From positions 1,599,029 through 1,663,028 of the forward strand of contig OX638350.1 of the NCBI GenBank assembly GCA_951813325.1: a stretch of 64,000 nt of DNA. Direction: 5' to 3'. Within the stretch, counting starts at the first letter, position 1; each line of letters starts with the position of its first letter. This stretch comes from an uncultured Acidimicrobiales bacterium (GTDB lineage Bacteria > Actinomycetota > Acidimicrobiia > Acidimicrobiales > Bin134). Below, piece by piece: positions 14,828-63,699 of the stretch. The notes beneath the pieces were generated by a model. That model searched no databases and was not told the DNA's origin. It saw only the letters and a list, made by a program, of their open reading frames with translations. The translations under genes and the position numbers were made by a program.

Positions 14828-15376
14828 TCAGCGAATCAGCAGCCGGTCGACGATCTCTTCCAGCAGGGGCTCGAGTTTTTTGGCGATGGCGTCGTTGTCC
14901 TCGCTCAGGTAGTCGTGGGGGATGACGACTCGGGGGACGTCGGGCAGGCCCAGGGAGCGGGCGACGGTATCGGCGGCGACGGCGAAGGGCTCGGTGACCA
15001 AGGTGACGGTGGGGATGCCCAGCCTCTCCAGGTTCACGGCGTCGAGCACACTGCCCGACGTGCATGAGCCTCATTTGGCCAGGCCATTGACCACCCCCGC
15101 GCAGGCCCGGAACGAGGCCAGCATATCGTCGCCGGCCGGGCGGCTGAGCACCGGCTTGTGCTGGCGGACCACGGCGGTCACATCCAGACGGTGGCGGAAC
15201 TCCCGTTCCAGCACCTCGGTGTAGCGGGTGAAGTCGGGGCCCGATGAGGGGTTGAATTCGTTGACCAGGAATCCGATGGTCAGCGTGCCTTGGGTGTGGC
15301 CCCTCCGAGGGGCTAGTTCGCCGTGGTTGACCACTACCTCGCCCCGGGGATCAACCAGCTCGCCGAGCAACTTCAT
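14828..15376 (-). CDS. UGSC family selenoprotein (TGA at codon 102 read as Sec)
   Basis: Reading the TGA at 15071-15073 (minus strand) as selenocysteine joins two halves into one 182-residue protein. Around it: GVVNGLAK-Sec-GSCTSGSVLDAV, exactly the U-G-S-C motif that names this family, followed by the conserved ERLGIPTVTLVTEPF and PHDYLSEDND. Cysteine (CGSC) or Sec versions are known; the function is unresolved but the pair looks like a redox centre. A nine-pair stem-loop follows the TGA. The start at ATG 15376 is 21 nt after the stop of the 345-residue gene upstream, suggesting an operon. Confidence 0.9.
15040..15070 (-). promoter_or_regulatory. Candidate bacterial SECIS element of the UGSC gene
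   Basis: On the minus strand, ten nt after the TGA, CGTCGGGCA (15060-15052) pairs with TGCTCGACG (15048-15040) in nine consecutive pairs, one G-U, around a GTG loop. The loop begins 20 nt after the TGA and its first base is G, matching bacterial SECIS rules. It is the strongest of the three stems in the window. Confidence 0.76.
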
Positions 15377-15397: not shown

Positions 15398-16435
15398 TCA
15401 GCCCAGCGCCCGGCTCACTGCGTAGCCGCCCAGGTTGCCCCATCCAGCGCACACCGCCATCCAGGGGATCGATTCGGCGCCGGTGACCATCACGTGGACG
15501 TCCTCGGGCCGCTCGGTGACTGGCACTAGCGTGTCGGGATCGGCGGCGTCCACCCAGTCGGGCCACCAGGCGTAGGGGGGTACGCCGGGAGAGAGCAGGT
15601 CGCCGATGCGCCGCCGGGCCTGTTGCCACAGTTCTTGTTGTACTGCGGCCCGGTCGTAGCCCTGCTCGGCTAGGTGGCGGGCCTCGTTGGGGGTGAGCAC
15701 CACCAGGGTTTCGCCCATGGTGTGGGTGTTGTTGCATCCCTTGATGGCCATGGCGTCGGCCACCTGAGCGAGGCGATTGATCGGGGTGTCATCGGCTCCC
15801 CACATGGCCACGCTGGTGGGGGACTCGCAGGCGAAAACGGTGATGCCGCTGTCGGCGTCGACGCCGCGGGCCTGGTGCAGGGCGGGCCACGGGCTGATGG
15901 GCGACTCAGCCACGCAGAAGGCGTAGCGGCCGGGATGGCCGAACACCTCTTTGACCGGTTCGCCGGGGGTGGCCCCGCCCGCGTTCCACAGCAGCAGCTT
16001 GACGGCTCGGCCGATGGCGGCGTTGGCGTGGGCCCCGCCACCGCTGAACACCGACTCGGTGTGGGCCATTTCGAGCCGCTCCACCGCCGGCCCCGACACG
16101 ATGACCAGCGGCCAGCACGGATGGGTAGTGGTGACCACCCCCCGGAGGTTGAAGCGATCTTCCAGCATGGCCTCGACGGCGGTCAGCACCACCTCGAAGT
16201 GATCGGGCTTGCAGCCGGCCATGACCGCGTTGGCCGCCACTACCTCGACGGTGGCTGCCCCGCCCCTGGGGGGTATGGCGCCCAGTAGTTGACTGGGATC
16301 CCGGCCTGAGGCGGCCACCAGGGCGTCCACCGCCTCCCGAGTGGGGGGATACACCGGGAGCCCGTCGGTCAGCCTCTCGGCGAGGGCCAGCTCCACCCAC
16401 TCCTCGATGGTTCGAGCCGTGGCTATAGCAGTCAT
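15398..16435 (-). CDS. Conserved protein of unknown function, UGSC operon partner
   Basis: A 345-residue soluble protein I cannot assign to a named domain. It has SRGRDPSQLLGAIPPRGG-like N-terminal sequence, an AVMAGCKPDHFEVVL segment, GGGAHANAAIGRAVKLLLWN, and NNTHTMGETLVVLTPNEA. Several conserved-looking cysteines (MAGC, THPC, VFACE, IKGC, AVCAG) could act in thiol chemistry. It is followed 21 nt later by the UGSC selenoprotein, so the two probably act together on the same redox or thiol substrate (inference). It lies 4 nt from the amidohydrolase stop upstream, so all three may share a transcript. Confidence 0.75.
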   Translation of the reverse strand: MTAIATARTIEEWVELALAERLTDGLPVYPPTREAVDALVAASGRDPSQLLGAIPPRGGAATVEVVAANAVMAGCKPDHFEVVLTAVEAMLEDRFNLRGVVTTTHPCWPLVIVSGPAVERLEMAHTESVFSGGGAHANAAIGRAVKLLLWNAGGATPGEPVKEVFGHPGRYAFCVAESPISPWPALHQARGVDADSGITVFACESPTSVAMWGADDTPINRLAQVADAMAIKGCNNTHTMGETLVVLTPNEARHLAEQGYDRAAVQQELWQQARRRIGDLLSPGVPPYAWWPDWVDAADPDTLVPVTERPEDVHVMVTGAESIPWMAVCAGWGNLGGYAVSRALG

Positions 16436-16439
16436 CGGC

Positions 16440-17516
16440 TCAATCCCACCCGAAGAGCCGCTTGGGGTTGGCCTCGAACATAGCCTGCTTGGTGTGGTCG
16501 TCCAGATCGGGTCGCCCGGTCACGCCGGTCACGCTGGTGGGGAATTCGCTGTCCCAGTGGGGGTAGTCCGATGCCCACACGATGATGTCGCTGCCGATCT
16601 GCTCGACCACTTGAGGCAGCCCCTCCTCGCCCTCGGTGGACACGAACAGCCGCCCTTCGGCCAGGTACTCACCCGGCGGCTTGGTGATGGCGTCGAACTC
16701 GTGGCTCCGGTGCTCGTAGTGCTCGTTGAGGCGCTCCAGCGTGTGGGGCACCCAGCCCGCGCCGCCCTCCAGCAAGGCCACCCGCAGCCGCTCGAACCGC
16801 TCGAACACCCCACCGCAGATCAACGTGGTGGCCGCGAACATCAAGTTGAACGGGAACTCGATCACGTGAAGCTGGGCGTAGGCGTCGGTGAACCGGCCGT
16901 TGGCGAACCGGCAGCCCCCGGCGTGGAACCCGAGGGGCACGTCGAGCTGTTCGGCCAGTTCGTAGAGGGGGTCGTTGTCGGGGTGGTCAGGATTGCGGTC
17001 GCCCACCGCGCAGGGAACGGTCAGCGACACGAACCCCAGTTCGGTCACGCACCGCTCAGCCTCGGCCACCGCCTCGGCCATCCACTTCAGCGGCAGTGCC
17101 GGGGTGGCCCGCAGCCGCTTGGGGTCGGCCGAGCACCAGTCGGCCAGCCAGTTGTTGTAGGCCCGGCAGCAGGCGACGGTGAGGTCCCGGTCTGATCCGG
17201 CGTACAGGCCGAGCGACATGGCTCCGTACAGCACGGCGATGTCGATGCCCTCGGTGTCCATGTCGGCCAGCCGCAGCACCGGGTCCACCCCGCCCTCGCG
17301 GTGGGTGGTCGACTCCCGGATGCCCTCGGGTGCCCAGGCCCCTGTGCCGGTGCCCGGCGGGATCACCTTGCCCTCGATCACATAGCGAGTAGTGCCCCGC
17401 TCGTCGATGATCAGCCGGGGCCGGCGCTCGTGGAACTGGGCCGGCAGGTACTGCTCCCAAAGCTCGTCGGGCTCGAATACGTGGCCGTCCACGTCGATCA
17501 CCAGATGCTCCGGCAT
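16440..17516 (-). CDS. Amidohydrolase family protein (Amidohydro_2, ACMSD-like)
   Basis: A 358-residue metal-dependent TIM-barrel hydrolase. The N-terminal VIDVDGHVFEPDELW carries the metal-binding Asp/His start of the barrel; LGFHAGG and the late WASDYPHWDSEFP provide further ligands. The family includes aminocarboxymuconate-semialdehyde decarboxylase and related C-C hydrolases of aromatic breakdown. It is first in a likely operon with the 345-residue protein and the UGSC gene. It diverges from the LLM gene at 17584 with 67 bp between starts. Confidence 0.87.
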   Translation of the reverse strand: MPEHLVIDVDGHVFEPDELWEQYLPAQFHERRPRLIIDERGTTRYVIEGKVIPPGTGTGAWAPEGIRESTTHREGGVDPVLRLADMDTEGIDIAVLYGAMSLGLYAGSDRDLTVACCRAYNNWLADWCSADPKRLRATPALPLKWMAEAVAEAERCVTELGFVSLTVPCAVGDRNPDHPDNDPLYELAEQLDVPLGFHAGGCRFANGRFTDAYAQLHVIEFPFNLMFAATTLICGGVFERFERLRVALLEGGAGWVPHTLERLNEHYEHRSHEFDAITKPPGEYLAEGRLFVSTEGEEGLPQVVEQIGSDIIVWASDYPHWDSEFPTSVTGVTGRPDLDDHTKQAMFEANPKRLFGWD

Positions 17517-61234: not shown

Positions 61235-61924
61235 CTAAGCGCCCACTGCATCCAGCACGCGGCTCTGGGGAATGCCGCCCCGCCATGAGGTGAGGATTGT
61301 ACCGTTGCGGTCCAGCAGCATCCCGGCGGGCTGACTGGAGATGCCCAGCTGCCGCCAAGATTCAAATGTCGAATCCCAGAGCATGGTGAAGGTGGTTCCG
61401 GTGGACTGCACGAAGGCTTCGGCCAGTCCGAGGTTGTCCTGGGTTCCGACTCCGATGACGGTGACCACCTCGGCGTTGTCTCGAGCGAACTGCTCGACGC
61501 CGGGGGCTTCCCGGCGGCAGGTGGGTCAATGGGGCGCCCAGAACCACAGCACGATGGGCCGCTCAGATGGGGCGAAGCTGGCCAGGTTCACGGTGGCGCC
61601 GCTGGCCACATCCACCAGCTCCACCGAGGGCAAGTCTGAATCGGGAACCGGTGTGGGTTCCGGCGCGGGCTCTGGGAGCCGGGGCGAAGCTCCCATGCTG
61701 CCGTCGTCAGAAGTCGACACCTCGGGAGCAGGATCCCCAGTGGGGACGGGCTCAGCTTCAGACAGATCGGGTGCTTGAGTACTGGTGGGCGCGGGTTCTA
61801 CCTCGGTGCTGTCGATCGCCGCAGGCTCGGCGTCTCCGCAGGCAGCCGCGAGGAGAGCGAGAGCGAGGCCCGCGGCGACAACCGCTCTCGATGGCCTGCC
61901 GCCACGGGGGATCAGACTGCTCAC
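61235..61924 (-). CDS. TlpA/thioredoxin-like lipoprotein, probable selenoprotein (TGA at 61526-61528 read as Sec)
   Basis: Reading the TGA as selenocysteine gives a 229-residue lipoprotein. The N-terminus has a basic start, hydrophobic VVAAGLALALLAAAC lipobox and a long Pro/Glu/Ser linker. The redox domain follows: RPIVLWFWAPH-Sec-PTCRREAPGVEQFA, where the thioredoxin CxxC is UPTC, then VTVIGVGTQDN and SQPAGMLLDRNG with the cis-proline (QP). Such extracytoplasmic proteins reduce or exchange thiols. The start is uncertain: GTG 61924 or GTG 61951. Reading on through the TGA keeps the frame and family match, so a simple nonsense mutation is less likely. Confidence 0.84.
61498..61525 (-). promoter_or_regulatory. 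Candidate bacterial SECIS element of the thioredoxin-like gene
   Basis: Nine nt after the TGA, CGCCGGG (61516-61510) pairs perfectly with CCCGGCG (61504-61498) around AAGCC. Opening the top pair gives a loop starting with G, 16 nt after the TGA, at the short end of the bacterial SECIS range. The high GC of the gene makes a chance hairpin more likely than in the other two cases. Confidence 0.6.
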
Positions 61925-61992
61925 CTTCCCGAGGCTATCGCCGATGGCCACAGAGCGCGACGGCGTGAGCACTCGGAGGGCCGGGGAAATCG

Positions 61993-63699
61993 CTATCCGA
62001 TGCGCCGGTAGGGGGCAGTCTGCTCGACGCAGGTGGGAATGTCGGGGTCGTTGGGACACGGGAACTGGAACACCAGCTCGGTCACCACATCGGGGGCCCC
62101 GAACTTGTCCGGGCCGAAGGTGGCGGGAAGCTGGTGCTGGATGTCCACCGAACCCAGGTTGGCAAAGGCGTTGTAGATCTCCTGGCGGGTGGGGTTGGGG
62201 CCGGCGTCATAGAGCGCCCGGGCCACCATGCGCATCTCGGTGCACACCGTGGAGGTCATCCCGTAGGCGCTGTCGTAGCTCCCGTACACCTCCCGCACGT
62301 GCCGGGCGCCAATAGCGCTGTTGGCCGCATAGGCCTCGTTGCACATGATGTTCAGAGGTGCGTTGAAGCTGACCACCGGGTTGTCGGGGACCCGGAAGTT
62401 TCCGGTGGGGGCGTCGTCGATGATGACGGTGCCGTTGTAAAGCTCTCCGGCGAGGTCGCCGCCAAACTGGACCACCTTGCCCGACACCAGATCGCCGGCC
62501 TGGCTGTTGAAATCCGAGTTGTAGAACTGCACGTCGCCGGGGGCGAATCCCTGGTTGACCATTTCAGAGATGAACTGGGGCAGACTCAAAACGTTGAGGC
62601 CGGGAAACAGCACATCCACACCCTCTTTCAGTATCTGCTCCACCGCGATGTCGTTGCCTTCGCGGCAAGTGGTGCCCCCGCCGCAGCCAATTTGCTCGGC
62701 TACTGCGACGTTGTAACCAGCTGCTTCCAGAGGTTCGATTGCTCCAGCTTGGAATGCCTCAGGTTGGCTTGGTGTGTCAGGCCATACCACACCGATCGTC
62801 TTGCCTTCCAGAGCGCCGCTAGCGATAATCGCCGCGACCATGTTGGACAACGAATCCTCAGCAATGGGGCTTAGGGAATACAAGCGTCCTGGGGCATTTT
62901 CGTGAAACTCTCGAGGATTGCCCTGGGTGGTCAGGAATAACGTGTCGTGATCTTTTGCGATGCACTCGGTGCCGCTGCCTTGGAACCCAGAGGTGTTGAC
63001 CACGATTACCGCGTTGTAGTCCTCGGTGGCCTCGATACAGGCTTGGTTGCGCAGGGTGTCGATGTCCTCGCCGCCACCGCCCAACGCGGACACCTCCACG
63101 AGACGGAGGTCGATCTTGCGGCCCCAGATGCCGTTGCAGTCCTCGTTGATCACCTTGGTGAAGGCCTCGAACATATCCACAACGTCGCCAACCGGGATAG
63201 CAAAGCCGATGCCCTCCAGCTCCTCCAGCTTGGTGCGGAGGTGGACGATGGTGATGGAGTCCTCGGTGATGCCGGCGCCGGTGGCCTGCGGCGGCGAATC
63301 CGGGTCGGGCGTGGCCGTGCAGAACACGTCGAGCGGCTGGAACGGATGCGACCGGTCGAATGTCTTGTGGAACTCGATGAAAAAGTCGCCCCGGGGCTCG
63401 TCGAAACCGATATCCACCGGCGCCTCGGGGGCCGGCTCGGATGACTCGTCTCCGTCACCGGAGTCAGATGGCCCATCGGGCTCGTCGGGGGCCGGGGCGG
63501 CCGCCTCCTCGGCCGGTGCGGGCTCGCCGCCGTCGCCGGAGTCGGATGGCTCATCAGGCCCGCCGGGCGCCGGGGCCGCCGTCTGCTCCGACTGTGCGGG
63601 CCCGGCACCGCCGTCGTCGTCGTTGCCGCCTCCACAGGCTACGGCCACGAGCACGAGCACCAGCAGCGCTCCCCAGAATTTCAGCATCCTATGAGACAC
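61993..63699 (-). CDS. ABC transporter substrate-binding lipoprotein (type 1, branched-chain amino acid-like)
   Basis: A 568-residue lipoprotein. The signal peptide has MLKFWGALLVLVLVAVAC as lipobox region. A long acidic linker follows (repeated EPSDSGDG, PAPAEE, about residues 30-105). The body is a type 1 periplasmic-binding fold: ITEDSITIVHLRTKL, AVIVVNTSGFQGSG, KTIGVVWPDTPSQP. Small amides or amino acids are likely ligands; permease genes are not in the window. GTG 63699 follows GAGAGGGG. The linker is a good recombination target. Confidence 0.88.
   Translation of the reverse strand: MSHRMLKFWGALLVLVLVAVACGGGNDDDGGAGPAQSEQTAAPAPGGPDEPSDSGDGGEPAPAEEAAAPAPDEPDGPSDSGDGDESSEPAPEAPVDIGFDEPRGDFFIEFHKTFDRSHPFQPLDVFCTATPDPDSPPQATGAGITEDSITIVHLRTKLEELEGIGFAIPVGDVVDMFEAFTKVINEDCNGIWGRKIDLRLVEVSALGGGGEDIDTLRNQACIEATEDYNAVIVVNTSGFQGSGTECIAKDHDTLFLTTQGNPREFHENAPGRLYSLSPIAEDSLSNMVAAIIASGALEGKTIGVVWPDTPSQPEAFQAGAIEPLEAAGYNVAVAEQIGCGGGTTCREGNDIAVEQILKEGVDVLFPGLNVLSLPQFISEMVNQGFAPGDVQFYNSDFNSQAGDLVSGKVVQFGGDLAGELYNGTVIIDDAPTGNFRVPDNPVVSFNAPLNIMCNEAYAANSAIGARHVREVYGSYDSAYGMTSTVCTEMRMVARALYDAGPNPTRQEIYNAFANLGSVDIQHQLPATFGPDKFGAPDVVTELVFQFPCPNDPDIPTCVEQTAPYRRIG

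Follow-up and report, generated by a model that had tools for sequence, protein, structure and literature searches.

In the selenoproteins GrdB and PrdB, the selenocysteine (Sec) attacks a substrate carbon that a second subunit has rendered electrophilic, with reductive cleavage of the C-X bond. Another selenoprotein family, UGSC, is described in the available part of a 2008 survey of the Global Ocean Sampling selenoproteome, where it was among the commonest selenoproteins (255 sequences, 37 samples; PMC2398784). In that part of the survey no function was assigned to UGSC, its fold was supposed to be thioredoxin-like from the UxxC motif, and a fusion with a domain termed 'Unknown_1' was mentioned (PMC2398784). 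A literature search on selenoproteins in Acidimicrobiia returned nothing relevant.

Here, a UGSC gene of an uncultured Acidimicrobiales bacterium was analyzed. The genome consists of one contig of 3.59 Mb, and the stretch under study, called the window below, covers 64,000 nucleotides of it (1599029-1663028).

A UGSC-family gene with an in-frame TGA

The gene and its two key codons are located as follows.

14828..15376, minus strand: gene of a UGSC-family selenoprotein of 182 aa, Sec102 included; start codon ATG at 15376, stop codon TGA at 14830-14828
15071..15073, minus strand: TGA codon 102, the U of U-G-S-C, read as selenocysteine; Sec/Cys column in aligned homologues
15062..15064, minus strand: codon of Cys105, the putative resolving cysteine of UxxC; this residue does not vary among the 41 sequences of alignment A5

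Translation from 15376 to 14828 gives MKLLGELVDPRG...VVNGLAK-U-GSCTSGSVLDAV...RLLIR. The coordinates, strand and frame of the gene were as claimed in a preliminary description made from the sequence, and the internal TGA at 15073-15071 is in frame. When the whole window was scanned by unsupervised codon usage for TGAs with coding sequence on both sides, this TGA ranked first.

The preliminary description had placed both halves of the protein in the UGSC family, joined in frame, and had proposed a UGSC-profile search with the joined protein. In this search the joined protein matched Pfam UGSC (PF24696) with an E-value of 2.1e-34 and 119.6 bits (cut-off 25 bits), residues 6-179 aligning with positions 1-170 of 172. 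The separate halves also matched the profile, with E-values of 3.6e-5 before the TGA and 5.4e-21 after it, and the family assignment was upheld. The NCBIfam UGSC model (NF041046) matched the window protein with an E-value of 5e-25 and 88.1 bits, which is under its curated equivalog cut-off of 125. With an E-value of 1 or better, this model found all 41 members of alignment A5, the window protein included. The window gene adds a new and somewhat divergent member to the known selenoprotein family UGSC.

Conservation and selection around the TGA codon

The selenoprotein reading depends on the residue that relatives carry in the TGA column. Among 120 aligned homologues, 110 have TGA at this position, nine have Cys and one divergent copy has Gln. 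Thus, the column is Sec or Cys in 119 of the 120, as the earlier reading had demanded. Holders of Cys-type UGSC include the haloarchaeon Natrialba and Sphingomonas. The genome of the window itself carries six UGSC genes, and all of them have a single internal TGA in this column.

The closest relative found was a gene from an Acidimicrobiia MAG (locus L033), which keeps the TGA at the same codon. Comparison of the window gene with this relative gave an omega of 0.17 upstream and 0.13 downstream of the TGA, values that indicate purifying selection on both sides of it. Codons 98-125 did not show a single base change between the two genes, while dS was about 0.35 elsewhere (P about 0.001).

The SECIS hairpin

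Bacterial SECIS elements are hairpins just downstream of the UGA, with the apical loop 16-37 nt away and a G early in the loop. The following candidate lies behind codon 102.

15040..15060, minus strand: bacterial SECIS hairpin of nine pairs; 15060-15052 with 15048-15040, GTG loop at 15051-15049

The 5' arm (15060-15052) reads CGTCGGGCA and the 3' arm (15048-15040) reads TGCTCGACG; together they form eight Watson-Crick pairs and one G-T pair. The loop begins 19 nt past the TGA, and with this distance and its GUG loop the hairpin follows the bacterial rule. The nine-pair stem with a GTG loop had been claimed before, and its position and pairs were reproduced. Compared with synonymous shuffles that preserve the protein, the window stem had a z of about -2.5, and 2.5% of the shuffles were equally stable.

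The family was compared over the 48 nt after the TGA. This comparison was made ungapped, because the protein is without gaps in this region. In an exhaustive stem scan of 102 distinct Sec genes, the top pairing excess was found for columns 12-19/23-30 with a three-base loop. The predicted stem of the window gene occupies exactly the same columns and has the family-wide SECIS geometry. At columns 18/24, for example, 51 of the 102 genes have C-G and 44 have G-C. The covariation score of 0.101 was reached in 0 of 1000 shuffles (mean 0.028), and when the register was slid the score did not rise above 0.045. All eight stem pairs were formed in 46 of the 102 Sec genes, compared with none of the nine Cys genes, and a G within the first two loop bases was present in 98 of 108. 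Stability against synonymous shuffles gave a mean z of -2.00 (s.e. 0.10), compared with -1.11 for the Cys genes (n = 9). For the pooled set, RNAalifold gave a weak consensus energy, and two paralogues of the same genome (L024 and L027) have no G at either of the two leading loop positions. Overall, the comparative evidence for a family-wide SECIS is strong but not uniform, because the counts are inflated by the relatedness of the sequences and because paralogue L024 keeps only three of the eight stem pairs. With the SECIS consensus, UGSC genes can be annotated correctly and need no longer appear as truncated fragments.

Standard annotation would stop the gene at 15071, in agreement with a TGA that is a real stop, created by a sequencing error, a nonsense mutation or the decay of a pseudogene, which leaves two fragments. 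This explanation is highly improbable, given that the TGA stands at one column in 110 homologues, that five further paralogues of the genome share it, that selection appears to be purifying on both sides of it and that the SECIS covaries across the family. Sequencing error and pseudogene were rejected on the column and covariation data.

Selenocysteine machinery of the genome

The genome encodes a tRNA-Sec with anticodon TCA and a SelB adjacent to SelA. Its SelD (locus L031) is a selenoprotein too and carries a TGA at the usual Sec position (GAG-U-AGKLG). SelA, SelB, SelD and tRNA-Sec are present together in one genome, as is expected for a bacterium that makes selenoproteins. Within the sampled phylum, all 22 genomes with Sec-type UGSC had a tRNA-Sec, compared with 2 of 12 others (Fisher 5e-7), where matches of 58 bits or more were called and two tRNA-Ser-like matches of 47-49 bits in one genome (G134) were discounted. 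The two others with tRNA-Sec were one of three genomes with Cys-type UGSC only and one of nine UGSC-free genomes.

Read-through of an in-frame TGA would also be seen if this genome had reassigned TGA to an ordinary amino acid, such as Trp in table 4. Against this, genes here end in TGA, the window UGSC gene included, and each UGSC gene contains only one internal TGA. The column is Cys or Sec in relatives and not Trp, the tRNA with the TCA anticodon was typed as tRNA-Sec, and SelA, SelB and SelD are present. Code reassignment was rejected on these grounds, and we regard it as next to impossible.

Judged from the sequence data, the gene encodes a genuine selenoprotein, with UGA102 at the Sec/Cys position of the family, a SECIS element and a full Sec machinery. 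The earlier selenoprotein reading is supported by the homologue column, the complete machinery and the SECIS covariation.

A second selenoprotein candidate was observed in the window at 61239-62059 (minus strand), with a TGA at 61528-61526. The product is probably a lipoprotein; it has a thioredoxin/Redoxin domain whose active site is WAPH-UGA-PTC (UxxC). Pfam Redoxin matched the joined protein with 3e-13 and the part after the TGA with 2e-6.

The partner gene and its neighborhood

Two genes lie upstream of the UGSC gene on the same strand.

15398..16435, minus strand: partner gene, 345 aa, of a 'TDGLPxxPPT' family, directly upstream of the UGSC gene
16440..17516, minus strand: Amidohydro_2 hydrolase/decarboxylase-like gene (Pfam PF04909, 1.6e-34)

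The amidohydrolase, partner and UGSC genes probably form an operon with the amidohydrolase gene first, the spacings being 4 bases between amidohydrolase and partner and 21 bases between partner and UGSC. At locus L033, an ORF 91% identical to the window amidohydrolase is likewise found upstream of the partner gene. The amidohydrolase probably acts in the same pathway as UGSC and its partner, a link drawn from position only.

Neither the window partner nor its relatives could be placed convincingly in a Pfam-A or NCBIfam family; among 73 partner sequences, the matches to Pfam and NCBIfam were scattered, of only one or two members each. Members of the partner family did not match the GrdE/PrdA pyruvoyl-subunit families. 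A search of the genome with PF09338 (GrdE family) gave no match, and its control was equally silent.

The partner adjoins UGSC in all six paralogues of the genome. A genome scan with the partner alone returned at least 566 relatives. Of the best 80 partner-centred loci, which were sampled by similarity to the query and are not independent, 69 had UGSC on the same strand no more than 1.6 kb away and two more had it farther off; among the other nine, several are short contigs or close to the end of a contig. Loci centred on UGSC profile matches (L113-L137 and L141) contained the partner in 26 of 26 cases. Furthermore, the two are fused in 18 genes. In these fusions UGSC always comes first, no stop occurs between the two parts, and the sole inner TGA is that of Sec. 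Since UGSC and the partner are neighbors or fused nearly everywhere, they probably form one selenium-dependent enzyme. Conserved surface residues of the partner are D24, C75, R143 and E177.

A Chloroflexi MAG (JACPQD01; L039, L065 and L105) carries several UGSC-partner pairs or fusions in tandem in one 13-kb stretch. At six loci with partner-family genes (L045, L052, L056, L063, L093 and L110), no UGSC was detected within about 6 kb on each side, contig permitting. The products of these partner genes may work with another Sec or Cys subunit or without any.

The neighborhood tally contained catabolic genes, for instance TctC receptors (19 of 200 neighbors), MmgE/PrpD, acyl-CoA dehydrogenases and enzymes using TPP. 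The neighbor-gene tallies were diverse; they revealed no single recurrent pathway and indicated no substrate.

Relationship to GrdB and PrdB

The model of glycine reductase selenoprotein B (TIGR01917) matched 22 of the 41 UGSC members, with a best E-value of 8.8e-7. A profile comparison of UGSC with GrdB-like sequences gave a probability of 91.7 and an E-value of 7.8e-7, with Sec aligned on Sec. For the window protein itself, the match to TIGR01917 was weak (E 0.13; 11.2 bits against a curated cut-off of 602) and PF07355 was not reported. At the level of primary structure, these comparisons show that UGSC and the Sec domain of GrdB/PrdB are remote relatives of common ancestry.

The preliminary description had missed this relationship, as well as the upstream partner gene and the six paralogues. 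In the literature examined, neither the link between UGSC and its partner nor the relationship to GrdB/PrdB was found, nor were the fusions, apart from the possible one with 'Unknown_1'; this domain of the survey may be the partner described here.

A PrdB/GrdB-like gene with a TGA in the context TPV-U-PLC was observed elsewhere in the genome (L142:1471-2298; G000:C1 about 1802703-1803530). TGA-bearing relatives of its protein recur in other Actinomycetota genomes (L160-L171).

Structure models

A natural fusion from locus L071, which is a relative and not the two chains of the window, was modelled with a pLDDT of 93.8 and a pTM of 0.93. Whole-model fold searches of this fusion were dominated by its UGSC half. 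The UGSC half is predicted to be doubly wound alpha/beta, of the flavodoxin type or half-periplasmic-binding-like, with a best Z of 11.7 (127 residues, 3.1 A) and a next of 11.1. No thioredoxin chain was among the matches listed, although one outside the listing may still match. The model does not support a thioredoxin fold for UGSC, and the folds that it matches are common ones that show no function.

The window partner was modelled with a pLDDT of 94.9. Its best match in the VIA fold search had a Z of 5.5 (83 residues, 3.8 A), and the best Foldseek E-value was 2.5e-3. No structure in the PDB clearly corresponds to the predicted fold. The matches, with a TM of about 0.3 or less, were class I fumarases and cyclic-amide hydrolases, and they were not used to derive a function for the partner. 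A sequence search of solved structures with UGSC and partner returned chance-level matches only.

These models bear on a different view of UGSC, namely as a general thiol/selenol oxidoreductase, thioredoxin- or peroxidase-like as supposed in the 2008 survey, with the partner as a dedicated client or scaffold. The UxxC motif would suit such a protein, as would the lack of a known substrate. The predicted doubly wound fold, with no thioredoxin chain among the matches listed, argues against it, and the sequence kinship is with GrdB/PrdB. In addition, a fixed link to one partner and catabolic surroundings are ill-suited to a general reductant. We consider this view unlikely.

A proposed two-subunit selenoenzyme

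UGSC and its partner very likely constitute a two-subunit enzyme. A two-subunit Sec-dependent reductase is favored because UGSC keeps the Sec domain and the following Cys, and the partner is the obvious second subunit. The window gene probably encodes the Sec-bearing subunit of such a reductase, for which we infer a small organic substrate and the chemistry. That this chemistry is of the GrdB/PrdB type is a possibility to which we give slightly less than even weight.

In the proposed mechanism, UGSC and partner would form a heteromer. The selenolate of Sec102, located at the N-terminus of a helix after a central strand, would attack a substrate that is bound for the most part by the partner. 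Cys105 would then resolve the Se adduct to a selenenylsulfide, which a cellular thiol/thioredoxin system would re-reduce. By analogy with GrdB/PrdB, which act on glycine, betaine and D-proline, the net reaction would be a catabolic one in which a small organic substrate, probably a carboxylic one, is reduced or reductively cleaved.

Taken together, the two components appear to represent a variant of the GrdB/PrdB type that has not been described. Tentatively, and with somewhat more doubt than belief, we propose the whole as an undescribed class of two-subunit selenoenzymes. It would be a branch of the GrdB/PrdB superfamily that spans many bacterial phyla, with a Cys-type in a haloarchaeon and a partner fold without a close PDB counterpart. 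Its members would carry out the Sec-dependent reductive cleavage of small organic acids, the six paralogues being specialized for different substrates. Now that UGSC has a partner to which it is linked and can be fused, and relatives in GrdB and PrdB, its function becomes a testable question.

Comparison with known systems

The window protein agrees with the UGSC family (PF24696, NF041046; 'UGSC-containing protein' in the available part of the survey, PMC2398784) in its full-length match, the U-G-S-C motif, a column with mostly Sec and few Cys, and a SECIS downstream. It differs in that it scores under the NCBIfam cut-off. The PrdB-like U-P-L-C selenoproteins of Actinomycetota, with one in the same genome (L142:1471-2298, TGA 1924-1926), belong to the same superfamily. 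In contrast to UGSC, they have the motif UPLC and another length, and they are classed by PF07355.

Compared with GrdB/PrdB (PF07355, TIGR01917, TIGR01918, TIGR04483), the partner of UGSC has no GrdE/PrdA match, and UGSC is without the N-terminal part of GrdB. UGSC occurs in Acidimicrobiia, Chloroflexota, Betaproteobacteria and others, and not in the classical amino-acid-fermenting anaerobes. What UGSC appears to share with GrdB/PrdB is a remotely homologous Sec-bearing half with Sec aligned in a UGx[TC] motif, the E..GIPT and HP elements, and a Sec subunit that works with a second subunit.
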